From the IMG/VR virus record IMGVR_UViG_3300043465_000431, positions 1 to 23,096 of that record: a DNA stretch of 23,096 nucleotides; one strand, 5' to 3'. This DNA is from a virus. The position numbers were made by a program, and so were the translations under genes. How positions within the stretch are numbered: the stretch's first letter is position 1; every line of letters begins with the position of its first letter. The notes below the pieces were generated by a model. The model had not been told where the DNA came from, searched no databases, and saw only the letters and a program-made list of their open reading frames with translations. Below, piece by piece: positions 2,160 through 14,967 of the stretch.

Positions 2160-2423
2160 TTATCGTTCTACGAGTGCAATCCAATCCTGATGAACCATGT
2201 CTTTGCCTTCGTGTCCTTGACCCTTGTTCAGTGTTCTGTCCCACAGAATACGGTCGCCCACACGAATGTCTTCCGTTATCTTATCACCAATTGCGACAAC
2301 CCGCGCCCAAATGTTCCGAGATCGTATTACTTCATTGTAAATGATTCCTGCTTCGGTTTCGGTTTGACCACCAAGTTCAGACTGCACCCAAATCCATTTT
2401 CCAATTGGCTTAAACTTGCTCAT
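2160..2423 (-). CDS. GroES/Cpn10-like co-chaperonin
   Basis: An 87-residue protein with the layout of Cpn10: an opening strand (KPIGKWIWVQ), a short mobile-loop-like stretch ending EAGIIYNE, the central WARVVAIGDKI and VGDRILWDRT strands that resemble the GroES VVAVG and VGDRVLF core, and a closing DMVHQDWIALVE. Phage proteins of this kind (T4 gp31, for example) replace host GroES during folding of the major capsid protein. The start ATG has a strong AGAGGAG SD seven bases upstream and overlaps the methyltransferase end by 14 nt. Its stop codon merges with the SD of gene 43, so the two are probably translated together. The mobile loop is shorter than in typical GroES, so GroEL binding is inferred. 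Family assignment rests on motif resemblance only. Confidence 0.7.
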   Translation of the reverse strand: MSKFKPIGKWIWVQSELGGQTETEAGIIYNEVIRSRNIWARVVAIGDKITEDIRVGDRILWDRTLNKGQGHEGKDMVHQDWIALVER

Positions 2424-3363
2424 TTAAAATCTCCTCTAGAGTTTGTGGAACTGATTCTTTAATACGCGCTTCTGCAATCTTAATATAATCAGGATTCAAT
2501 TCAGTCCCAATATAATTCCGTCCGTTCTTCAAAGCCACCACAGCAGTTGTTCCACTGCCTGTGAATGGATCAAACACGGTGCCTCCTGCGGGGCATCCTG
2601 CAAGCACACACGGCGTTACTAGTTCTTCAGGATACACCGCAAAGTGTGCGCCCTTATAGCCCTTCGCATTCACCGTCCATACTGATCTCTTGTTCTTTAG
2701 TGGATTCTCTTCCCACTCTTTGCCCTGTAGTCCGTGGTGCTTTAGTTTGGGATCAGTGGTTCCGTCCCGCATTTCAGAGCGATCACGCGTTCCCCAATTA
2801 CGAGCAGGTTCCTTTACGGCTTCGTGATCGTAGTAGTAGTGGGGCTTCTTGGACAACAGGAAGATGTACTCATGCGACTTGGTGCAGCGGTCTGCCACGC
2901 TTTCAGGCATGGGATTGGGCTTGCTCCAAATAATGTCTTGACGCAGATACCATCCGTCTGCTTGCAGCGCAAACGCCACACGCCACGGAATACCAATCAT
3001 GTCTTTGGTCTTCAGCCCCTTCTGATCCTTGCGGTTTGCAGGAATAAAGTCTGAAGGCATTCCACGCTGACCGCCTTGCGTTTGTGGTGGTGGTACGCAG
3101 TTCTTTGCGCTCATGTACGAATCGCCAAGGTTTAGCCACAGCGTACCGTCATTACGAAGAATACGGCGCACCTCACGGAACACCTCGACCATCTTCTGCA
3201 CATAGCCCTCAACGGTGTCTTCTTGACCAATCTCGGCTTCTCCTCCTTGGTAATCACGCAAGCCGAAGTACGGAGGAGATGTAATGCAAGTCTGAACGCA
3301 TTTGTCGGATAGCGTCTTCATGCCCGTAATACAATCGCCAAGAATGATGTGGTGTGTGTTCAT
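2410..3363 (-). CDS. DNA methyltransferase, N4-cytosine/N6-adenine type
   Basis: A 317-residue SAM-dependent DNA amino-methyltransferase. The catalytic motif IV TSPPYFGL is near the N terminus (residues 28-35). The SAM-binding motif DPFTGSGTT follows near residue 265, with IGTELNPDY after it. Catalytic motif before SAM motif is the beta-class order, shared by N4-cytosine and N6-adenine enzymes, so the modified base cannot be told from sequence. Length is normal and both key motifs are intact. The start ATG overlaps the HNH stop as ATGA. No cognate restriction enzyme with a recognisable fold is adjacent apart from the HNH protein. A stand-alone methyltransferase protecting phage DNA from host restriction is the simplest reading; the target sequence is unknown. 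Confidence 0.92.
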   Translation of the reverse strand: MNTHHIILGDCITGMKTLSDKCVQTCITSPPYFGLRDYQGGEAEIGQEDTVEGYVQKMVEVFREVRRILRNDGTLWLNLGDSYMSAKNCVPPPQTQGGQRGMPSDFIPANRKDQKGLKTKDMIGIPWRVAFALQADGWYLRQDIIWSKPNPMPESVADRCTKSHEYIFLLSKKPHYYYDHEAVKEPARNWGTRDRSEMRDGTTDPKLKHHGLQGKEWEENPLKNKRSVWTVNAKGYKGAHFAVYPEELVTPCVLAGCPAGGTVFDPFTGSGTTAVVALKNGRNYIGTELNPDYIKIAEARIKESVPQTLEEILNEQV

Positions 3364-4091
3364 AGCATAAAATCCTCTAGTGTTGGCTTGTTCTTCAGCG
3401 GCTTGCCTGTGATTAGCGCGTCCAAATCTTCCTCACTCAATCCTAATCCTGCTGCAAGTTGCCGCACGAACTCCCATGCGCGTTCAGGACTAACACGCTC
3501 ACTATACAAGCGGAAGTGTTCAGGCGCAAGTGCAATCGCTTCAGGAAGGAGTTTATTCCATTTTGAAATGTTTTCTACAGCGTCAAGTATTCTTAAATTA
3601 ACGGGATGGTGAATACCACCGTGAGAAAGGGGAAGTATGTGATCAATGTGATAGGCTCGTCCCGTTTCGGTTTGAATTTCTTGGCGAGTGCGTTCCAGCA
3701 AGAGAATTTTCTCTTTTTCATTCGCAGTCAAATAAATTGACGAATTTTTCTTTTTACATCTTCGTCTTCTTGACCCTTCTGCGTGTAGTTCACGATAGCG
3801 TTCATGGTTGCGTTTACGATAAGCCTTGGTGTATGATGAAATCCGTTTGTAGTTGCGTTTATTACTATCTCTTTTGGATGCTGCTACCTTTTCGCGATTC
3901 TGTTCACGATAAACCTTATTCACTGCTGCTATCTTTTTGCGATTCTGTTCACGATACTTTGCACACGATGCCTTCTTTTTTTCAGGATTGCGGTGATACC
4001 TAGCCCTATCTAATGCATTCTGTTTTTCAGGATTGCGTGATTGATACCTAGCCCTATCTGATGCCTTCTTTTTTTCAGGATCTCTTGCCAT
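3360..4091 (-). CDS. HNH endonuclease with N-terminal basic repeats
   Basis: A 243-residue protein. Residues 1-110 are about seven degenerate 15-residue units, each starting near N/D-P-E-K or N-R-E-K and ending near A-R-Y or Y-R-E-Q. They are rich in Lys and Arg and probably helical, suiting DNA or RNA contact. Residues 147-185 form an HNH nuclease core: YHIDHILPLSHGG, then HHPVNLRILD and NISKWNK, with H148, D150, H151, N165 and N174 as likely catalytic or metal-site residues. The C-terminal tail has no recognised motif. The start ATG sits behind a GGGAGGTG SD. Free-standing HNH genes are common in T4-like phages, often as homing endonucleases. Whether this one is homing, part of a restriction pair with the downstream methyltransferase, or repurposed cannot be decided here. 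Confidence 0.85.
   Translation of the reverse strand: MARDPEKKKASDRARYQSRNPEKQNALDRARYHRNPEKKKASCAKYREQNRKKIAAVNKVYREQNREKVAASKRDSNKRNYKRISSYTKAYRKRNHERYRELHAEGSRRRRCKKKNSSIYLTANEKEKILLLERTRQEIQTETGRAYHIDHILPLSHGGIHHPVNLRILDAVENISKWNKLLPEAIALAPEHFRLYSERVSPERAWEFVRQLAAGLGLSEEDLDALITGKPLKNKPTLEDFML
3894..4059 (-). repeat. In-frame direct repeats encoding the HNH N-terminal units
   Basis: An 18-bp word at 3894-3911 recurs exactly at 3939-3956, 45 bp (15 codons) away. Another 18-bp word at 3994-4011 recurs exactly at 4042-4059, 48 bp away. The spacings match the 15-16-residue protein repeats, so the units appear to have grown by recent tandem duplication. Such near-identical units could expand or contract by slippage or recombination. 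Confidence 0.85.
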
Positions 4092-4106: not shown

Positions 4107-4502
4107 TTAGGCAATATCGCCGTAGCCCGTACCACGAGTAAAGAAGTTTTCTTCGTGCTCTTCAAAGCCAAAGCACTCCCGTGCGTAGTCAAGAATAATA
4201 TTCTTGTCAAACTTGTTGCAGGAGTACACATCAAGAGTAATGAACCGCTTTGGTTCCATTGAGTGAATCTGAATGCCGCTCTCAATAAGCGGAACCCAAC
4301 CACTTACCCCTGCCTTGTCGGGATAAATCTCAAGTCCATTTTTAGTTGGACCATGCATGACAACAGGCTGTGACATACGGGTCATACCGATCTTGTCCAC
4401 AACGCGCTCAAGAAAGCGGTAGTGCAATTCCAAGTCATCGGCTGCACCAATGCGACAGGTGTACATATCAAGGTAATACGAATATCCGAATGGTTTACTC
4501 AT
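4107..4502 (-). CDS. S-adenosylmethionine decarboxylase (SpeD)-like proenzyme
   Basis: A 131-residue protein resembling class 1 AdoMet decarboxylases, which self-cleave at a Glu-Ser bond to form a pyruvoyl group. The core reads GVSGWVPLIESGIQIHSM with DVYSCN further on. E74-S75, H80 and C95 have the same spacing (Ser to His 5, Ser to Cys 20) as E62-S63, H68 and C83 of the Thermotoga maritima enzyme. The usual ESHI is ESGI here, so a normally conserved histidine next to the cleavage site is glycine. The start ATG overlaps the lysozyme-like stop as ATGA, with AGGAG eight bases upstream. A true SpeD would supply decarboxylated AdoMet for spermidine. The ESGI change, and the known drift of SpeD homologues to other decarboxylase activities, leave the substrate open. 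No spermidine synthase is in the window. Confidence 0.75.
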   Translation of the reverse strand: MSKPFGYSYYLDMYTCRIGAADDLELHYRFLERVVDKIGMTRMSQPVVMHGPTKNGLEIYPDKAGVSGWVPLIESGIQIHSMEPKRFITLDVYSCNKFDKNIILDYARECFGFEEHEENFFTRGTGYGDIA

Positions 4503-4936
4503 TTGACTAACTCCTTTTTGATTTTGTTCCAATACTTAATTGTGTTCGGGTTAAGGTGTCCACGCGGACCACCGTTATGAATTCGTGCCAACTGCTCAAG
4601 CGTTGCACTCTTGGGAGCGTATCGCTTCCAATACGCACGAACAATCTTTTCGGCATACGCCTTTTTCATGCAGTCTTGGTACTCTCCACCAATAGACTTG
4701 TCAAACTCTACAGCGTCCTGCCAATACGCCTTCCAAATCTGATAAGGACCAATTGCCTTGCCCTCATCTCCCACAAGAATCAGCCCACGGTTGGACTCAA
4801 CAGTGTACATGGCATTAAGCAATTGGTCAACGGTGTGAAAATCAATAATCTTCACAGGATTCTCGCGGGGGCGAACCGTTACATCCTTAAAGGTGGCGGC
4901 AGAGCAAATTACGGTAGCAAGAATCACAGCAAGCAT
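4499..4936 (-). CDS. Secreted i-type (destabilase-like) lysozyme candidate
   Basis: A 145-residue protein starting with a hydrophobic segment (LAVILATVIC, then SAA) that looks like a signal peptide with cleavage after residue 14. It lacks a proper lipobox. The mature part carries VESNRG and GDEGKAIGPYQIWKAYW, then an AYWKRY, and ends with ARIHNGGPRG and YWNKIKK. The GPYQI, HNGGP-G and YW-K series is what invertebrate-type lysozymes (destabilase family) show, but most of their cysteines are absent. E47 and D57 are candidate catalytic acids. The protein would reach the periplasm through Sec and cut peptidoglycan, serving as an endolysin or an envelope-modifying enzyme. No holin is visible beside it. 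Another lysozyme-like or lytic transglycosylase family remains possible. The start overlaps the uvdE end by 13 nt; its SD is weak. Confidence 0.65.
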   Translation of the reverse strand: MLAVILATVICSAATFKDVTVRPRENPVKIIDFHTVDQLLNAMYTVESNRGLILVGDEGKAIGPYQIWKAYWQDAVEFDKSIGGEYQDCMKKAYAEKIVRAYWKRYAPKSATLEQLARIHNGGPRGHLNPNTIKYWNKIKKELVK

Positions 4937-8687: not shown

Positions 8688-8780
8688 TTATTTATGCTTG
8701 GCAATCCACTCTTCAAGACGAACTTGGGGAATCCATCCAAGATGTTCTTTTGCTTTGATATGTTTTACTTTCGTACTGCT
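8688..8780 (-). pseudogene. C-terminal remnant of a different SDR sugar epimerase/dehydratase
   Basis: Just past the end of the fcl-like gene, in another frame, an open stretch of 30 codons ends at TAA 8690-8688. It reads ...VKHIKAKEHLGWIPQVRLEE plus seven more residues. The K-A-K-E-x-L-G-W-x-P-x-V-x-L-E-E pattern is the typical C terminus of extended SDR enzymes such as GDP-mannose 4,6-dehydratase. It has no start and is closed upstream by an in-frame TGA (8783-8781). The intact fcl-like protein has its own normal C terminus, so this is the tail of a second, lost or replaced gene. Confidence 0.7.
8689..8696 (-). promoter_or_regulatory. T4-type late promoter motif (CATAAATA)
   Basis: The coding strand reads CATAAATA at 8696-8689, one base from the T4 late consensus TATAAATA and matching the NATAAATA form used by T4-like phages. 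It lies 21 bp upstream of the 402-residue glycosyltransferase start, giving a short leader that still holds the AAGGAG SD. It also forms the last codons and stop of the SDR remnant. The same octamer occurs by chance inside regA, so position is the main support. Confidence 0.55.
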
Positions 8781-9673
8781 TCATAGTTTTTTACAAAATA
8801 TTCAATAGTCTTTGCCAGTCCTGTATCTAGATCGGTAAACTTAAAGTCGGAGAATCGACTTCGGAACAAAGAATTGTCCGTATTCTTTCGCATTATGCCT
8901 TCCGATTTTGTGGCATCAAAAACAACTCTTCCAGTGAATTTCATATGCTTCACAATCACCTCAACAACTTCAGCGATGGTATGTACATATCCAGGAGATA
9001 CTATCATCAACGGAGGAAGATCATTCATTTGTTCGGTGTGAATACTCTTAACGATAGAAGCCATATCATCTGCATATACAAATTCTCGTTCTGCTTTTCC
9101 AGAACCCCATACCAAGAACTCAGTTCCGTTTTGCTTTGCAAGATAGCAGCGGTGTATGAGACTCGGAATAACATGACCATTTTCCAAATGGTAGTTGTCG
9201 TTTTTTCCGTACATATTACACGGAACAATACATGATGTGCGTATTCCATACTGTCTCATAAGACTTCTAGATCCGACTTCTAACATTCTCTTTGAGTATG
9301 CGTATCCAAAATTAGTTGGATGTGGTTCTCCATCGTGTATGCTGCTTTCTACTAGAGGCAGAGGAGCAGATTGAGGAAACACGCAAGTGGATAGGAAAAA
9401 AGTGGATCTCTTTATATTATGATCCTTACAGGCTCGGATGATATTTGCATTCATATAGAGATTGTTAATGAAAAAGTCATACATAAAATCATTATTGGCT
9501 TTCACCCCACCAACAATACCAGCAGCATGAACAATCTCATCAACATCATGCTCGCGAATATACCGATCTAAGGAACTATAATCCAACAGATTCACTTCTT
9601 TCTTTGTTGGCTTCAATCCAAAATCAATAGATGAACCCAACATACCATGACCGCCTAGTATTAAAGTATTCAC
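8765..9673 (-). CDS. GDP-L-fucose synthase / ColC-like epimerase-reductase
   Basis: A 302-residue extended SDR. The NADP site is GGHGMLG (residues 7-13). HAAGIVGGVKAN, FLSTCVFP, FGYAYSK (Y124-x3-K128), NMYGKNDNYHLENGHVIP, WGSGKAEREFVYADD and ATKSEGIMRKN closely follow the GDP-fucose synthase signature set. S95, C97, Y124, K128 and H167 match the catalytic Ser, epimerisation Cys, Tyr, Lys and His of that family. The normal reaction is epimerisation at C3 and C5 and reduction at C4 of GDP-4-keto-6-deoxymannose. The close relative ColC does the C5 epimerisation and reduction on the 3-deoxy compound to give GDP-L-colitose. With a ColD-like enzyme in the same operon, either substrate is possible. 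The start is GTG in a GTGA overlap, with GAGGTGA upstream. Confidence 0.85.
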   Translation of the reverse strand: MNTLILGGHGMLGSSIDFGLKPTKKEVNLLDYSSLDRYIREHDVDEIVHAAGIVGGVKANNDFMYDFFINNLYMNANIIRACKDHNIKRSTFFLSTCVFPQSAPLPLVESSIHDGEPHPTNFGYAYSKRMLEVGSRSLMRQYGIRTSCIVPCNMYGKNDNYHLENGHVIPSLIHRCYLAKQNGTEFLVWGSGKAEREFVYADDMASIVKSIHTEQMNDLPPLMIVSPGYVHTIAEVVEVIVKHMKFTGRVVFDATKSEGIMRKNTDNSLFRSRFSDFKFTDLDTGLAKTIEYFVKNYEAVRK

Positions 9674-10575
9674 GAAATCACCTCTAATTTTTCGTCAGCA
9701 AGTCCCCAGTTTTTTTCATTTGCATGAAATCTATTAGTGATCAAAGAGTCATTCATAACAGGCTTATTCTTATTGAAATTTTCGTAGTGATATAGATGAA
9801 AAAACTTGATGCCAAAATCTTCTAGATCTCCTCCACACGGATATCTTCTCTTGAGGCGAGTATGGAGTTCAATATCTTGCCATCCCCAATAAGTAAGTTC
9901 TTCCCACCAGCAACTACTTTCCTCTGCTATTTCTCTATGCATCAATACTGCCATAGCACCACCACTAAAATAGTCAACACTGATTTTATTATGACGAAGC
10001 ATATGCTCGTCAACAAAATTGTCTGCATCTACAGTAGGTTGTTTAGCGTTAACAGGATCAATAACGCAAGTCTTCAAAAACTCATCCACATCTTTATATG
10101 ATTCAGCATCAACATATCCTATTCGGGGAATATGAAAACGAGATCCCTGATAGAACTTCTTTTCCTTATTATCCGATAATGCCTTTACAAAATTGTATAG
10201 ACGCTCTATCTCCTCGTAAGGCATAAAGCAGTCAGAGTCCCAGAAAACAACATACTCACCCTTGCTATTACGATATGACACATTGTAAGGATGCACGATG
10301 GAATATGATGTTCCACGATTATACTTCTTGGTGATATCAGGGGACACATATACGAACTTCAAGTTTGGATGTCTCTCCTTGACCAATTCATCTGAAATCT
10401 TTATTTCACTTCCCCAGTCACAAACGACAACTTCAACATCGGATTTTCCTAAACGCTTTAAATTATCTACCATTTTGTTTAATGTGAGTTCGAGTCGCTT
10501 GTTGACTCCACCTTTTCCATTATCATCTGCTGCATAATTGTCATTTTTTCCACCAATCAGTATTGATAGTAGCAT
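9670..10575 (-). CDS. Family 2-type glycosyltransferase
   Basis: A 301-residue GT-A protein. The N terminus MLLSILIGGKND begins the nucleotide-binding fold. VVVCDWGSE (about 49-57) and GEYVVFWDSDCFMP (106-119, DSD at 113-115) form the donor and metal site. The acceptor-side motif SGGAMAVLMHRE, followed by WWEELTYWGWQDIELHTRL, matches the GW-D-x-E signature of polypeptide- and galactosyl-type GT2/GT27 enzymes. A long insertion (residues about 120-200) separates the two. ATG 10575 is preferred over the upstream TTG because GGAG sits six bases before it and the ATG follows the TAA of the preceding gene by one base. Likely it transfers a cassette-made sugar; specificity cannot be told. Confidence 0.85.
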   Translation of the reverse strand: MLLSILIGGKNDNYAADDNGKGGVNKRLELTLNKMVDNLKRLGKSDVEVVVCDWGSEIKISDELVKERHPNLKFVYVSPDITKKYNRGTSYSIVHPYNVSYRNSKGEYVVFWDSDCFMPYEEIERLYNFVKALSDNKEKKFYQGSRFHIPRIGYVDAESYKDVDEFLKTCVIDPVNAKQPTVDADNFVDEHMLRHNKISVDYFSGGAMAVLMHREIAEESSCWWEELTYWGWQDIELHTRLKRRYPCGGDLEDFGIKFFHLYHYENFNKNKPVMNDSLITNRFHANEKNWGLADEKLEVIS

Positions 10576-10576
10576 A

Positions 10577-11167
10577 TTATTCTCCAAAAGAATCTTTCAT
10601 TTGTTGAGTCTTGATATAAGCCCAACTGTCATCCTCGAATGTTCCATCGGGATCGCAAGAAAAAATTTCACTCAACGCTTTACGAACAGCATCACAACTA
10701 ACATCATGTCCAGCAATCACCCCACCAACTTTAACCTTTGGCATCCATGTGAGGATGTCTTGTTTTACAGCGGAGTATGAATGATCACCATCAATGTAAG
10801 CCAGATCAAGTGATTCGTTTTCAACAGAAACAGCAAACTCCACACTTGCCATCTTGTTCTTCTTGATGTTTTTATGTAATTTGATATTTGCGTCAAATAT
10901 CTCTTCGGCTTCTCTCAATTCCTCTGCCTGATTATCCAAATCATATGTCGATCCTTCTTCCCGATACATCGCCCAAGGATCAACGCAATTTATCGTAGCA
11001 TTTATGAAACAACTATTAATAATAAGTGTCGAATGACCACAGTAACATCCAATTTCTACTATGTTCAGGTCTTCTCTTTTGCCTAGCAAATTTTTTGTGC
11101 CAAGACATAGTTTCTGCAATCCCGTAACCATATTAGACGATCCACGCATTTCTATTAATTTAGCCAT
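10577..11167 (-). CDS. Class I SAM-dependent methyltransferase (Methyltransf_24-like)
   Basis: A 196-residue Rossmann methyltransferase. Motif I is IVEIGCYCGHST (residues 36-47). The acidic ribose-binding strand end is CVDPW. DLAYIDGDHSYSAVKQD (121-137) and GGVIAGHD (148-155) follow the pattern of the Methyltransf_24 / cephalosporin-hydroxylase-like group, whose D-G-x-H-x-Y residues bind metal or substrate. Family members often O-methylate sugars. The start ATG has AAAGGA. It sits between the SDR and a glycosyltransferase, so modification of the glycan made here is the best guess. Substrate unknown. Confidence 0.82.
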   Translation of the reverse strand: MAKLIEMRGSSNMVTGLQKLCLGTKNLLGKREDLNIVEIGCYCGHSTLIINSCFINATINCVDPWAMYREEGSTYDLDNQAEELREAEEIFDANIKLHKNIKKNKMASVEFAVSVENESLDLAYIDGDHSYSAVKQDILTWMPKVKVGGVIAGHDVSCDAVRKALSEIFSCDPDGTFEDDSWAYIKTQQMKDSFGE

Positions 11168-11192
11168 ATCAAATTCCTTTTAGTATGTCGGT

Positions 11193-12203
11193 TTAACCAA
11201 CAAATTGTGTTTGCCATTCTATTGTTCGATTCAATCCTTCATCAAAATCAACAAAGTTTTTTGATGATTTTCCAAACTCGTCCATGTATCTCTGAATACT
11301 GACATTTACAATTTTTGGATTACCTGCCATAGAGTTACTATTTTGCGGAACTGTGACTTCCTTTTCTAGAATAGTTCCTATCTTGCAAGCCAATTCGTAT
11401 ATGGAAAGTTCAGAAATTCCTCCGATATTGTATGTCACATCCTTACCGAATAGCATAATGGTAAACAGCATTTCGGTGACATCACTGATATAACAGAATG
11501 TCCGTATCGCGGAACCGTCATCCATCAGTTTGATGGACTGTTCAGTTAGCCCTCTGTCTATGAGGATATTCAGAACTCGCTTGTCGTTCTTTTTTGCACC
11601 AGCACCGTATGCAGAACTCAAACGAGCAATCTTGATGTTGTATCCCTTCTGAACATACGCATGGCAAATAGCCTCTCCTGTCCTCTTTCCTTCAATATAA
11701 CAAGACCGTGGATGATCTGTGTTGGTAGTTCCAACCTGATTCTCTTGTATGTTGTGGTGGTCCAAGCCGCTGTAAATTTCGCTAGTGCTGACAAACAAAA
11801 AGGTTCCATCCTTGTTCAACTTTTCTAACAGAAAAATGGTGGATATTGTGTTGAGTTGAATGGTTTTGATTTTGTCTTCCAAAAACTTGGACGGCTGTGC
11901 GTATCCAGAAGAATGAATAATAAAATCAAACTGCGGTAGATTGGAGAACATCTGTGTGTCTGTGATGTCTCCCCGAATGATGTTGCAATCTGTGAACACA
12001 TCAGAAAAACACGGATCTATTTGTTCACGAAACCAACACCACAATTCTATGTTGTATTCATCTTTCATCTTCTTGATGCAGGATACAAGGTTGATACCAA
12101 CAAGTCCCGATGCTCCCGTGACAAGAACTCGCTTATCGCGCATCTTGGAAAGATCGGTGCGGCTCAAAACAATGTCAGCGTCATTACTCAAGACTGAATG
12201 CAT
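11193..12203 (-). CDS. NAD-dependent nucleotide-sugar epimerase/dehydratase (extended SDR)
   Basis: A 336-residue SDR. Residues 26-36 hold VLVTGASGLVG, the NAD site. IRGDITD binds the adenine end. IHSSGYAQPSKF, VSTSEIYS (catalytic Ser/Thr near 139-141) and SCYIEGKRTGE (Y169, K173) complete the active site, and ARLSSAYG and IRTFCYISDV follow. The layout resembles UDP-glucuronate decarboxylases and dTDP-glucose 4,6-dehydratase relatives, but it is not a typical GDP-mannose 4,6-dehydratase. There is an N-terminal extension of about 22 residues. It may make the 4-keto intermediate or reduce the product of the preceding enzymes. The ATG overlaps the transketolase C gene by 16 nt and has AAAGGA upstream. 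Confidence 0.85.
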   Translation of the reverse strand: MHSVLSNDADIVLSRTDLSKMRDKRVLVTGASGLVGINLVSCIKKMKDEYNIELWCWFREQIDPCFSDVFTDCNIIRGDITDTQMFSNLPQFDFIIHSSGYAQPSKFLEDKIKTIQLNTISTIFLLEKLNKDGTFLFVSTSEIYSGLDHHNIQENQVGTTNTDHPRSCYIEGKRTGEAICHAYVQKGYNIKIARLSSAYGAGAKKNDKRVLNILIDRGLTEQSIKLMDDGSAIRTFCYISDVTEMLFTIMLFGKDVTYNIGGISELSIYELACKIGTILEKEVTVPQNSNSMAGNPKIVNVSIQRYMDEFGKSSKNFVDFDEGLNRTIEWQTQFVG

Positions 12204-13066
12204 GATTGAATCCTTTCTCTAACAGAATCAGCATCAACACGAATATCAAAATCGTGTTCCGTTTTTGTTCCGTAATTTGTCAGAAATCTGCGGGGAACAC
12301 CTATGTTAAACTTCCTATATCGCCTTCCAGCCAAAGCAAGATCAACCAAGTGATTAACTGTTCCTTCATAGAAGGGTTCGCATATGATAATGGTTTCGTG
12401 GAAGTTGTCAAGCAGAATCTTGCCATCAAAAGGTAAAACTGTGCTATAGTACAGAACCGTCACATCCATATTGCGTGTGGCTTCCATCACTTGCTTTAGC
12501 ATAGTTCCAAAACACAAAATAGTGCCAGATTTTCCATGCTTGATGATATTTCCGTATCCAAACTTGACATCAATCTGTTCGTCATGCTGAGTTTCACTCA
12601 TGCGAGTGTAGGTTGGATTCCCACTATTGTAGGTTTGTTTTACAAGAGTATCCAACTCAGATGCTGTACCAGGAATCAATATTTCCATATTTGGAATGGA
12701 TGTCATAAGTGAAACATCAGCGGGACAATGATGTGTGCATCCCAATGCTGCATAGTCATATGATCCACCAACACTAATGAAGTTTCCATTCAGTTCTTGA
12801 TATCCAAAATCTACCTTGAGTTGCTCAAACGCTCTTTCGACAATAAATGGAGCAATGGTGTGTACGAATGGAATCAATCCCTCCTTTGCCATACCTGCTG
12901 CAACTCCTATGGTACTCTGTTCAAGAATACCAATATTGTGTGCACGAGAAGGAATATTCTTAATCTCCTCCCGAAAACCAAAAACACCGATGTCACCGAG
13001 CAACAACACCGTTCGACTATCAGAATAGAGAATATCCTGCAAAGTTTTTACAAATTGCTTTCTCAT
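12188..13066 (-). CDS. Transketolase-like, C-terminal half (Pyr domain plus C domain)
   Basis: A 292-residue protein equivalent to the second half of transketolase. ILEQSTIGVAAGMA (E49) carries the glutamate that activates the TPP pyrimidine. VERAFEQLKVDFGYQ and GCTHHCPADVSLMTSIPNM match the transketolase/DXS pyrimidine domain. A C-terminal transketolase domain follows (TILCFGTMLKQ, then VPRRF). It should pair with the protein encoded just upstream to form one thiamine-diphosphate active site. ATG 13066 is chosen over the upstream TTG: it follows the partner's TGA by one base and has GGAAG nine bases upstream. Split transketolases of this size occur in many bacterial glycan clusters. A role in sugar branching rather than central metabolism is inferred from context. 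Confidence 0.9.
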   Translation of the reverse strand: MRKQFVKTLQDILYSDSRTVLLLGDIGVFGFREEIKNIPSRAHNIGILEQSTIGVAAGMAKEGLIPFVHTIAPFIVERAFEQLKVDFGYQELNGNFISVGGSYDYAALGCTHHCPADVSLMTSIPNMEILIPGTASELDTLVKQTYNSGNPTYTRMSETQHDEQIDVKFGYGNIIKHGKSGTILCFGTMLKQVMEATRNMDVTVLYYSTVLPFDGKILLDNFHETIIICEPFYEGTVNHLVDLALAGRRYRKFNIGVPRRFLTNYGTKTEHDFDIRVDADSVRERIQSCIQS

Positions 13067-13067
13067 T

Positions 13068-13820
13068 TCAAAGGGCTTCCAATTCTGCAATTATGGATTG
13101 TAGTTGTTCTGTGGTAGGAGACTTATGATGCCATTCAGGATTATTTTCCATTATGGCAATTCCCTTTCCTTTAACGGTATTACACAGCACAAAAGTTGGC
13201 TTGCCTGTAGTCATTGGAATTGATGTGATGGCATCAATGTTGTGCCCGTCTATTTCATGAGTTTGCCAACCAAATGCTGAAAATTTAGAAGTAGTATTAC
13301 CAATTCCCACAGCCCTATCAGTTGAATGGTTGTGATCCAACAGACAGACAAGGTTGTCTAGTCCATGATGACTTGCTAAAAGAGCGGATTCCCACACAGT
13401 TCCTTCGTTTGCCTCACCATCACCAATCAATACAAACACGGTTCCAACTGTTCCGCGGATCTTCTTTGCCATAGCCATACCAACAGCAATAGGCATACCA
13501 TGCCCAAGAGAACCAGTAGATGCTTCAATCGACGGGATTTTCGAGGTAGGATGACCACCAAGCAAAGAATCAAATTTGCAAAAGGAGTTCAAATCTGTAT
13601 TCAGCAATCCAAAGTGATCTAATACAACATACAATCCAAGAGAAGCATGACCTTTGGAGAGAACAAACTTGTGGTCTATGTTTTTGGTAATATACTCTCG
13701 ATACACTCCGTATATTATATCAAGCACTGATAGAGAACTAGGAATATGCCCTTCTTTGCTAGAATAGGCAAGATTCACAATTTTTGCAACTATCTTTTTT
13801 CTATCATCATTATATTGCAT
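13068..13820 (-). CDS. Transketolase-like, N-terminal half (TPP-binding)
   Basis: A 250-residue protein equivalent to the first domain of transketolase. The SSKEGHIPSSLS stretch holds the conserved histidine (H25) near the donor site. LSKGHAS and GSLGHGMPIAVGMA are family signatures. The metal/TPP motif starts GDGEANEGTVWE (133-144) and ends in LDHN (161-164). With the adjacent C-terminal half it would move a two-carbon ketol unit from a ketose phosphate to an aldehyde or ketone acceptor. The ATG overlaps the ColD-like stop by 11 nt. Its tight linkage to a sugar 3-dehydratase suggests a 4-keto-deoxysugar acceptor, but this is inference. The activity itself is well supported, as all TPP residues I can check are present. 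Confidence 0.92.
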   Translation of the reverse strand: MQYNDDRKKIVAKIVNLAYSSKEGHIPSSLSVLDIIYGVYREYITKNIDHKFVLSKGHASLGLYVVLDHFGLLNTDLNSFCKFDSLLGGHPTSKIPSIEASTGSLGHGMPIAVGMAMAKKIRGTVGTVFVLIGDGEANEGTVWESALLASHHGLDNLVCLLDHNHSTDRAVGIGNTTSKFSAFGWQTHEIDGHNIDAITSIPMTTGKPTFVLCNTVKGKGIAIMENNPEWHHKSPTTEQLQSIIAELEAL

Positions 13821-14967
13821 TCAAAATTCCCACTAGTCTTTGCACATCATCAATTTCCACAAACTCACTGTTTCCAACATATAGGCTATTGTCGTGAATA
13901 AAATCTGCTTTTCCTTCAATCACATATGTATTCACCCCGTGCATCATTGGATGACGAAATAGATTTCCTGCAATGAGTGGTCGGTTGTCAATTCCGTTTT
14001 CTTTCAGTGCTTGCGAAACCTTATGGATATTTCCATCTAATCTAATTATAGGAAAGGCAAAAAGACTAGTACCTACACATACCATGTCCGAATGATACTT
14101 GGATGAGTCCAATCCGTCAAGATATATTCTGAAATTTCGTTCACGAACACAAACTGATTTATCAAGACGAGCCATTTGAGATATACCAAGAACAGCATTC
14201 AAATCAGTGTTTCGTACATTGTAGCCACTGCACAGGAATGTAAACCGTTCATCAACTCCGTCCACCTTTCTCTTGCTCCGTTCTTGTTCTGGCAACTCTC
14301 GTAGCATTCCATGAGAACGCAACAGCAGAAGATGATGATACAGTTCTTCATCGTCAGTGCATACCATGCCCCCTTCGATGGAAGTAATATGGTGTCCATA
14401 GAAGAAAGAAAAAGTAGATGCTTTTCCAAATGTACCAACCTTTTTACCATTCCATGTGCTTCCGTGAGATTCGCAGCAATCTTCCAACAAAATTATATTA
14501 TGCTTGTCACAAAGGTCAATCAATTTTTGACTTATAGAAGGGATACCCAGAACATGAGTCACAAAAATGTATCGTACATTATGCTTCTTGATGTAATGCT
14601 CTACATTATCAAGATCTGGTCCAAGAGTCTTCATGTCAACATCGGTCATGTAAATACCTTGGCTGCTACTCTTCAGTTGCAGTATAGGTGCAATGTTGGT
14701 TGCCCATGTACAGGACTGTGCAATCCAGTCACCACGACCGTATAGATCATGCATAGCCTGTACAAGAATAAGATTGGCGGAGGATCCCGAATTAACAAAC
14801 ACGCTATACTTAACACCAAGCCATTCAGACCAAAGCCGTTCTAACTCTTTGCATTTTTCTCCATACGAGAGTTTTTCATTGCTCATAATGAACGCGCACA
14901 ATTTCTCACGATCTTGCTGATTAACCGCACGATCATCCATTAGTTTCCAATGTTTGGTGTCATTCAT
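13810..14967 (-). CDS. ColD-like PLP sugar 3-dehydratase (His-type DegT family)
   Basis: A 385-residue DegT/DnrJ/EryC1 fold-type I protein. VNSGSSANL binds the cofactor phosphate. LLEDCCESHGS (D163) contacts the pyridine nitrogen. At the position where aminotransferases have the Schiff-base lysine it reads SFFYGHHITSIEGG: His192 replaces Lys. This substitution marks the 3-dehydratases ColD (GDP-4-keto-6-deoxymannose) and RfbH/E1 (CDP-sugar), which use PLP or PMP to remove the C3 hydroxyl. The C-terminal NRPLIAGN and SLYVGN resemble ColD more than RfbH, and there is no [2Fe-2S] cysteine cluster of the E1 kind visible. Product expected: a 4-keto-3,6-dideoxy sugar. The ATG has no clear SD; a later ATG would cut the conserved N terminus. 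Confidence 0.88.
   Translation of the reverse strand: MNDTKHWKLMDDRAVNQQDREKLCAFIMSNEKLSYGEKCKELERLWSEWLGVKYSVFVNSGSSANLILVQAMHDLYGRGDWIAQSCTWATNIAPILQLKSSSQGIYMTDVDMKTLGPDLDNVEHYIKKHNVRYIFVTHVLGIPSISQKLIDLCDKHNIILLEDCCESHGSTWNGKKVGTFGKASTFSFFYGHHITSIEGGMVCTDDEELYHHLLLLRSHGMLRELPEQERSKRKVDGVDERFTFLCSGYNVRNTDLNAVLGISQMARLDKSVCVRERNFRIYLDGLDSSKYHSDMVCVGTSLFAFPIIRLDGNIHKVSQALKENGIDNRPLIAGNLFRHPMMHGVNTYVIEGKADFIHDNSLYVGNSEFVEIDDVQRLVGILNAI

Follow-up and report, generated by a model that had tools for sequence, protein, structure and literature searches.

The locus described here raises the question of which substrate, if any, is decarboxylated by a small SpeD-like protein that carries glycine directly after its putative self-cleavage serine, where histidine is usual. 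The window, i.e., the whole 23,096-base virus contig that was analysed, encodes this protein, P0001 (Table 1), in a gene whose ATG start codon (4502-4500) shares the sequence ATGA with the stop of the upstream lysozyme-like gene. P0001 is confirmed as a class 1b SpeD homologue: the Pfam family AdoMet_dc (PF02675) matched it with 54.4 bits (gathering cut-off 25, E = 1.8e-14), as the only match in the window's own record, and PHROG 3125 (SAM decarboxylase) matched it as well (1.5e-10). The NCBIfam AdoMetDC equivalog TIGR03330 gave 38.2 bits, under its cut-off of 75.65, and the validated AdoMetDC of phiN3 likewise stayed under this cut-off (28.9 bits); none of the NCBIfam models among the hits named an ornithine-type SpeD. 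Our preferred reading, held at close to but short of an even chance, is that P0001 is a self-processing pyruvoyl amino-acid decarboxylase that most likely converts L-ornithine to putrescine.

Table 1. Features of the SpeD-like gene, its predicted product and neighbouring genes (window positions).
Feature	Position	Strand	Remarks
SpeD-like proenzyme P0001	4107..4502, stop included	(-)	131 aa; translation 4502..4107
Predicted products of Glu74/Ser75 cleavage			74-aa beta chain and 57-aa pyruvoyl-bearing alpha chain; cleavage predicted from the family
Ser67 codon	4302..4304	(-)	counterpart of Thermotoga S55, from alignments
Glu74-Ser75 codons GAG AGC	4278..4283	(-)	predicted self-cleavage site and pyruvoyl precursor; Thermotoga E62-S63
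Gly76 codon GGC	4275..4277	(-)	replaces the usual His
Gln78 codon CAG (Ser+3)	4269..4271	(-)	clade signature; candidate SpeDC-diagnostic Gln
His80 codon CAC (Ser+5)	4263..4265	(-)	counterpart of catalytic H68
Cys95 codon TGC (Ser+20)	4218..4220	(-)	counterpart of catalytic C83
Destabilase-type (i-type) lysozyme, upstream neighbour	4499..4936	(-)	PF05497, 6.3e-11; near the gene in many relatives
DNA methyltransferase PF01555, downstream neighbour	2410..3363	(-)	domain match and loci comparison
GroES-like co-chaperonin, within the same gene run	2160..2423	(-)	domain match and loci comparison

Active site, predicted fold and selection

An AlphaFold model of P0001 based on a 34-row alignment, in which G65, S75, H80, C95 and R123 are invariant, reached a pLDDT of 94.3; a first model from 23 close rows (pLDDT 69.5) was discarded. 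Five Thermotoga and Aquifex AdoMetDC chains came out on top in the Foldseek search with the P0001 model (1.7e-09 and TM 0.79/0.88 versus 1tmi). VIA-align Z scores were 16.1-17.5 for the five chains, with 17.4-17.5 for the Thermotoga maritima structures 1tlu, 1tmi and 1vr7 and the value of 17.5 for 1vr7; the human AdoMetDC and spermine synthase structures reached about 9 to 10, and other folds about 7. The predicted fold is that of a class 1b SpeD, at 17-20% identity to the T. maritima enzyme over the structural alignments. The first-pass annotation had stated that Glu-Ser, His and Cys keep the Thermotoga spacing, and this was borne out: E74-S75, H80 and C95 fall on E62-S63, H68 and C83, the numbering of S63, H68 and C83 having been derived from PDB profile alignments and a scripted numbering check. 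The same annotation had described the histidine after the serine as invariant-looking and replaced by glycine. The glycine is confirmed, but across the superfamily the histidine is not strictly invariant: Ser+1 was His in 10/10 ordinary stand-alone SpeD rows and Asp in two Firestonebacteria N-halves, and Ala occurs too.

The viral motif reads E-S-G-x-Q-x-H-S-(M/I/L)-E-P with Cys at +20, and E-S-G, Q+3, H+5, E+8, P+9 and C+20 were retained in 90/90 viral copies, namely the window, 80 loci of the main viral search and nine from a search with a bacterial query; 11 HTVC201P-like rows (TSH motif) and one dead fusion half were left out of the motif scoring. Among bacterial relatives, ESG is likewise combined with Gln at +3, ESA taking its place in one case. 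Gly76 is a signature of the clade and no oddity of a single phage; within the dN/dS set it was encoded by all four Gly codons and by no other codon. By itself, Gly76 shows no substrate. The serine equivalent to Thermotoga S55 was invariant in a 23-row and a 13-row alignment. The 81 close viral rows correspond to 52 distinct proteins (as trimmed), and 78 of them, representing 53 distinct genes (L034, L038 and L073 left out), yielded a median dN/dS of 0.060 from those 721 of 1378 pairs whose synonymous divergence was usable; selection on the viral gene is strongly purifying. The earlier proposal of intact self-processing is well supported by the retained Glu, Ser, His and Cys, the S55-equivalent serine, the AdoMetDC fold and this purifying selection. 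The same retention of E, S, H and C, the invariant S55-equivalent and the low dN/dS speak against a catalytically dead or purely structural SpeD relative, for instance a regulator of a host enzyme, which we regard as very improbable, even if trypanosome prozymes of this sort are known. Chance resemblance or a decayed gene was likewise ruled out by the Pfam match, the 90/90 motif retention and dN/dS.

In addition to Gly for His64, P0001 differs from the T. maritima enzyme in the Trp-Pro-Glu of ordinary SpeDs, which is replaced by Met/Ile/Leu-Glu-Pro throughout the window family; in the Thermotoga enzyme, Trp70 and Glu72 hold AdoMet. One Pro is described as completely conserved among AdoMetDCs in the available part of PMC10407285, and we infer that it is the residue at Ser+8 (Thermotoga P71), which is Glu in all 90 viral copies and Asp in phiN3. 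According to the accessible text of PMC9992855, phiN3 is a genuine AdoMetDC; it lacks this Pro as well as the Trp and Glu of ordinary SpeDs. Since phiN3 is without Trp-Pro-Glu and also scores below the equivalog cut-off, such losses are no proof of lost AdoMetDC activity. P0001 might accordingly be a diverged but genuine AdoMet decarboxylase that boosts spermidine synthesis of the host. This we consider improbable: the fold and the catalytic residues are retained, phiN3 provides a phage AdoMetDC without Trp-Pro-Glu and the speD of cyanophage S-SSM5 is flanked by gp45 and gp44, which places it with the same replication genes, but the TIGR03330 score of P0001 and the bacterial relatives discussed below argue in the other direction.

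In the mechanism that we propose for ornithine decarboxylation, the SpeD-fold proenzyme would cut itself between Glu74 and Ser75, Ser75 would be converted to the pyruvoyl group, and the latter would form a Schiff base with the alpha-amino group of the amino acid, with His80 and Cys95 acting in catalysis like Thermotoga H68 and C83. Gly in place of His64, Gln at +3 and Met/Ile/Leu-Glu-Pro in place of Trp-Pro-Glu would remodel the pocket, such that the substrate would most likely be L-ornithine and the product putrescine, which would raise the diamine supply during infection.

Position of the family among SpeD proteins

In a tree of 51 rows, a branch with 98/97 support had on one side the window family, the Acidobacteriota proteins, the C-halves of Firestonebacteria fusions and two plasmid proteins. 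Ordinary SpeDs (100/99) formed another clade, as did the HTVC201P-like phage proteins (98/95), to which phiN3 was attached by a long branch; MaAM05 speH_1, copies from giant phages and a single Acidobacteriota fusion made up a further clade (96/89). Trees in which the window clade was joined with the HTVC201P clade plus phiN3 (p-AU 0.219) or with ordinary SpeDs (p-AU 0.215) were not rejected. In a profile comparison, the window clade scored 127 with MaAM05 speH_1, 45 with ordinary SpeD and 40 with HTVC201P. The MaAM05 speH_1 clade and the window clade have FG...C, IGMT..xQP and CxxFD in common; the former has kept ESH where the motif is intact. The two plasmid proteins (Halioglobus, L240 7896-8264; Nostoc, L241 7914-8276) have ESG/DSG and a Tyr for the catalytic His, and their annotation is hypothetical or none.

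In the record of Microcystis phage MaAM05 (L086, 5486-8264), speD, speH_1, speE and an agmatinase gene are contiguous, possibly constituting an arginine-to-spermidine route; PMC9992855 reports a single phage with both SpeD and SpdSyn. The location of speH_1 beside the agmatinase gene hints at an arginine decarboxylase in that phage. Activity on ornithine or arginine has already been published for SpeD homologues of phages (PMC9992855), among them the arginine decarboxylase of HTVC201P, and P0001 resembles HTVC201P in lacking the AdoMetDC Pro and, probably, in its shifted substrate. A pyruvoyl-dependent arginine decarboxylase of this SpeDA type, forming agmatine, would thus be in line with the phage precedent, with the loss of the Pro that is also lost in published SpeDA proteins (PMC10407285, as far as accessible) and with a nearest other clade that includes MaAM05 speH_1. 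We nonetheless rate it as improbable, no agmatinase or AguA having been found in four, possibly incomplete, bacterial genomes with a relative. The motifs differ as well, HTVC201P having ETSH...HSWDE and P0001 being of the ESG-Q type.

As to ornithine, PMC10407285 names four central-region residues, Gln, Thr, Phe and Tyr, as diagnostic for SpeDC, the SpeD-derived pyruvoyl L-ornithine decarboxylases known from bacteria, archaea and phages (PMC10407285, PMC9992855). Residues Q78, S/T81, F87 and Y93 occur in this order, matched by order only and not by column. Position 81 is Thr in three Acidobacteriota proteins (L082, L206, L207) and in all but one of the three Firestonebacteria C-halves; the remaining C-half and the phages have Ser, so that the phage family presents candidates for the diagnostic Gln, Phe and Tyr in order, with Ser for Thr. 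SpeDC and P0001 further have the class 1b fold, the self-cleavage Ser, the His and the Cys in common, and SpeDC and the window clade are both found in phages as well as in the C-half of AdoMetDC fusions. PMC10407285 places HTVC201P with SpeDC, while it forms a clade separate from the window family in our best tree; the same paper considers that SpeDC may descend from a SpeDA clade.

Bacterial relatives and the choice of substrate

A scan of bacterial genomes with two peptide patterns identified four loci, one in an Acidobacteria MAG (G016), where the relative (L082) is a stand-alone copy of 49% identity, and three in Firestonebacteria MAGs (G017-G019). Each of the latter three encodes a fusion of 256 to 257 aa that has the relative as its C-terminal half. 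Equivalog scoring was carried out for one of these fusions (L083, 5602-6372): its N-half exceeded the AdoMetDC cut-off (115.9 versus 75.65) and its C-half was below it (35.1), with candidate cleavage serines at 68 and 204. Judged from sequence, the N-half looks like an ordinary AdoMetDC, which argues against the C-half relatives being AdoMet decarboxylases as well. For a Desulfotignum fusion, mutations assigned AdoMetDC activity to the N-half and ODC activity to the C-half, and the AdoMetDC fusion architecture has been proposed as ancestor of the eukaryotic enzyme (both PMC10407285, available part). A SpeE-type protein (PF01564) was present in 3/3 Firestonebacteria genomes; the one scored was below the SpeE equivalog cut-offs. 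In these genomes, which may be incomplete, the agmatinase/arginase family PF00491 and AguA were each found in 0/3, while an OKR_DC_1 decarboxylase was present in 3/3 and may be a source of their putrescine; a frame of similar appearance has its start next to speE and an ordinary speD in two further Firestonebacteria genomes. Two of the three fusion-bearing genomes have PF02784 matches that are LysA.

Among 396 Acidobacteriota genomes searched with a profile, 40 had some match, and two further close clade members (L206 and L207; 131 and 128 bits) were obtained. In G016, G260 and G268, the clade gene was the sole PF02675 match (3/3; these genomes may be incomplete) and a stand-alone SpeE was absent, PF01564 occurring only in frames of at least 581 aa, although these large frames might make spermidine; G326 of the same phylum, searched alongside, had a short SpeE in addition to an ordinary SpeD. 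The PF00491 protein of G016 scored as arginase over the cut-off, not as agmatinase, and no AguA was found in this possibly incomplete genome. Overall, agmatinase or AguA as parts of an agmatine-to-putrescine route were detected in 0/4 bacterial genomes with a relative (G016-G019; possibly incomplete), a count that covers these two enzymes in these four genomes and leaves out AguB, G260, G268 and the host of the phage. SpeD without SpeE is termed 'anomalous' in the part of PMC10407285 available to us, where lack of an agmatine route is taken to suggest ODC; following this reasoning, a sole SpeD without SpeE and without an agmatine route points away from AdoMet and towards ornithine.

The first-pass annotation had left the substrate between ornithine, arginine, an unfamiliar compound and AdoMet. 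A shifted substrate is now favoured because the family forms a distinct clade, has lost Trp-Pro-Glu, is part of the Firestonebacteria fusion and is present in three Acidobacteriota genomes without SpeD and SpeE partners; here, ornithine fits best and arginine less well, with AdoMet keeping a small share of the probability.

The Acidobacteriota loci also offer another perspective. In G268 (L243, 8223-12222), the clade member with the ESA motif is the last of three same-strand genes, preceded by a PF13434 Lys/Orn-type N-monooxygenase gene and a gene for a cupin+MetRS didomain protein. In G260 (L242, 6573-8479), a member with ESGIQIHT adjoins a PF13434 N-monooxygenase gene, with an FAD oxidoreductase and an EamA transporter further off. 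For the N-monooxygenases of both genomes, histamine N-monooxygenase was the nearest named model, below cut-off. The neighbours of L082 are AlaDh/PNT-like and SET/ATP-grasp genes. From their domain content, the G268 genes resemble hydrazine-forming-type machinery plus a pyruvoyl-type decarboxylase. In a review (PMC11705231, seen in part), cupin-MetRS didomain enzymes are described to join N-hydroxy amino acids to amino acids; "decarboxylase", "SpeD" and "pyruvoyl" are absent from the main text of this review as available, and a SpeD-type decarboxylase in a nitrogen-nitrogen (N-N) bond cluster is thus an unexplored lead.

These contexts would be consistent with a self-processing pyruvoyl decarboxylase of a substrate new to SpeD homologues, whose amine product would be used by the phage; N-hydroxy-ornithine, lysine, histidine or a hydrazino acid would be examples of such a substrate. 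We consider this doubtful, though deserving of attention: the N-monooxygenase genes, the G268 didomain gene similar to hydrazine synthetases and the neighbours of L082 would support it, but the Firestonebacteria fusion and the missing agmatine route fit ornithine, the window genes followed in viral loci included no N-monooxygenase or hydrazine-type neighbour, and the assayed SpeD homologues were without lysine activity in the accessible text of PMC10407285. A bolder variant, to which we attach slightly less weight still, is that the ES(G/A)-Q clade represents a separate neofunctionalisation of SpeD for a new substrate. The Acidobacteriota copy would then supply an amine or trim an amino acid in a pathway for an N-N-bond natural product, and T4-like phages, with the gene as a standard element beside the replication genes of their lineage, would make an unusual amine.

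Another observation concerns a tandem SpeD-like fusion in G326 (L208, 1417-2277; L245, 7902-8762), whose N-half has lost the cleavage motif (AGGH). Its C-half is MaAM05 speH_1-like and its N-half dead, whereas published fusions are reversed, with a dead C-half.

Viral distribution and gene neighbourhood

Relatives are encoded on 124 viral contig stretches, the best 80 of which were analysed, and nine further, more divergent viral members were retrieved via the bacterial query; scanning viral contigs with a pattern from the acidobacterial L082 protein gave no hit. Publications on ODC- or ADC-active SpeD homologues of phages make this a known kind; new is the large coherent phage clade, known here from metagenomic contigs only, with its fixed ES(G)-Q signature and with bacterial fusions and stand-alone relatives. 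Among the open PMC papers listed in the literature search, none was seen to describe the ESG clade, and it may be among the at least 1,000 unlisted SpeDC homologues mentioned in the available part of PMC10407285. In INPHARED, 5/50,697 records matched P0001 at E<=1e-3. Three of these, MaAM05, S-H9-2 (NC_070960) and LR756501, have the motif ESH, and none of these three matches read among the five bears ESG; for LR756503 and MW147367, the same match statistics are listed. If P0001 is an ornithine decarboxylase, a common uncultured T4-like phage lineage would feed putrescine production via a 131-aa PLP-free enzyme. The findings further link phage genes to bacterial AdoMetDC fusions and possibly to N-N bond gene clusters.

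PF02675 matched once per record in 15/15 viral records, many of them fragments; accordingly, no phage in this set showed an ordinary SpeD in addition. PF01564 and PF00491 gave no match in 15 viral records, many of them likewise fragments. Photosystem reaction-centre genes (PF00124), sought as a clue to the host, were found in 0/16 viral records, many of which are fragments. Among 89 loci, several of which end at contig ends and 16 of which have at most one neighbourhood gene, versions of the gene order gp44, dUTPase, unknown, UvdE, lysozyme, SpeD-like, methyltransferase, GroES, gp43 are repeatedly seen. The PF05497-type lysozyme was matched in seven of 50,697 phage records at E<=1e-3, all of them from Cellulophaga phages. 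An HNH/endonuclease VII-like ORF (3360-4091) adjoins the SpeD-like gene in the window and lies before or after it, or is absent, among relatives; this varying place fits a homing endonuclease. The window DNA polymerase is about 46% identical to a T4-like cyanophage gp43, which ranked first among 2593 matching records. Finally, a transketolase in two ORFs, a DegT aminotransferase, two NAD-epimerases and a methyltransferase are encoded in a row at 8765-14967, a run that looks like an unusual sugar-building cluster of the phage.
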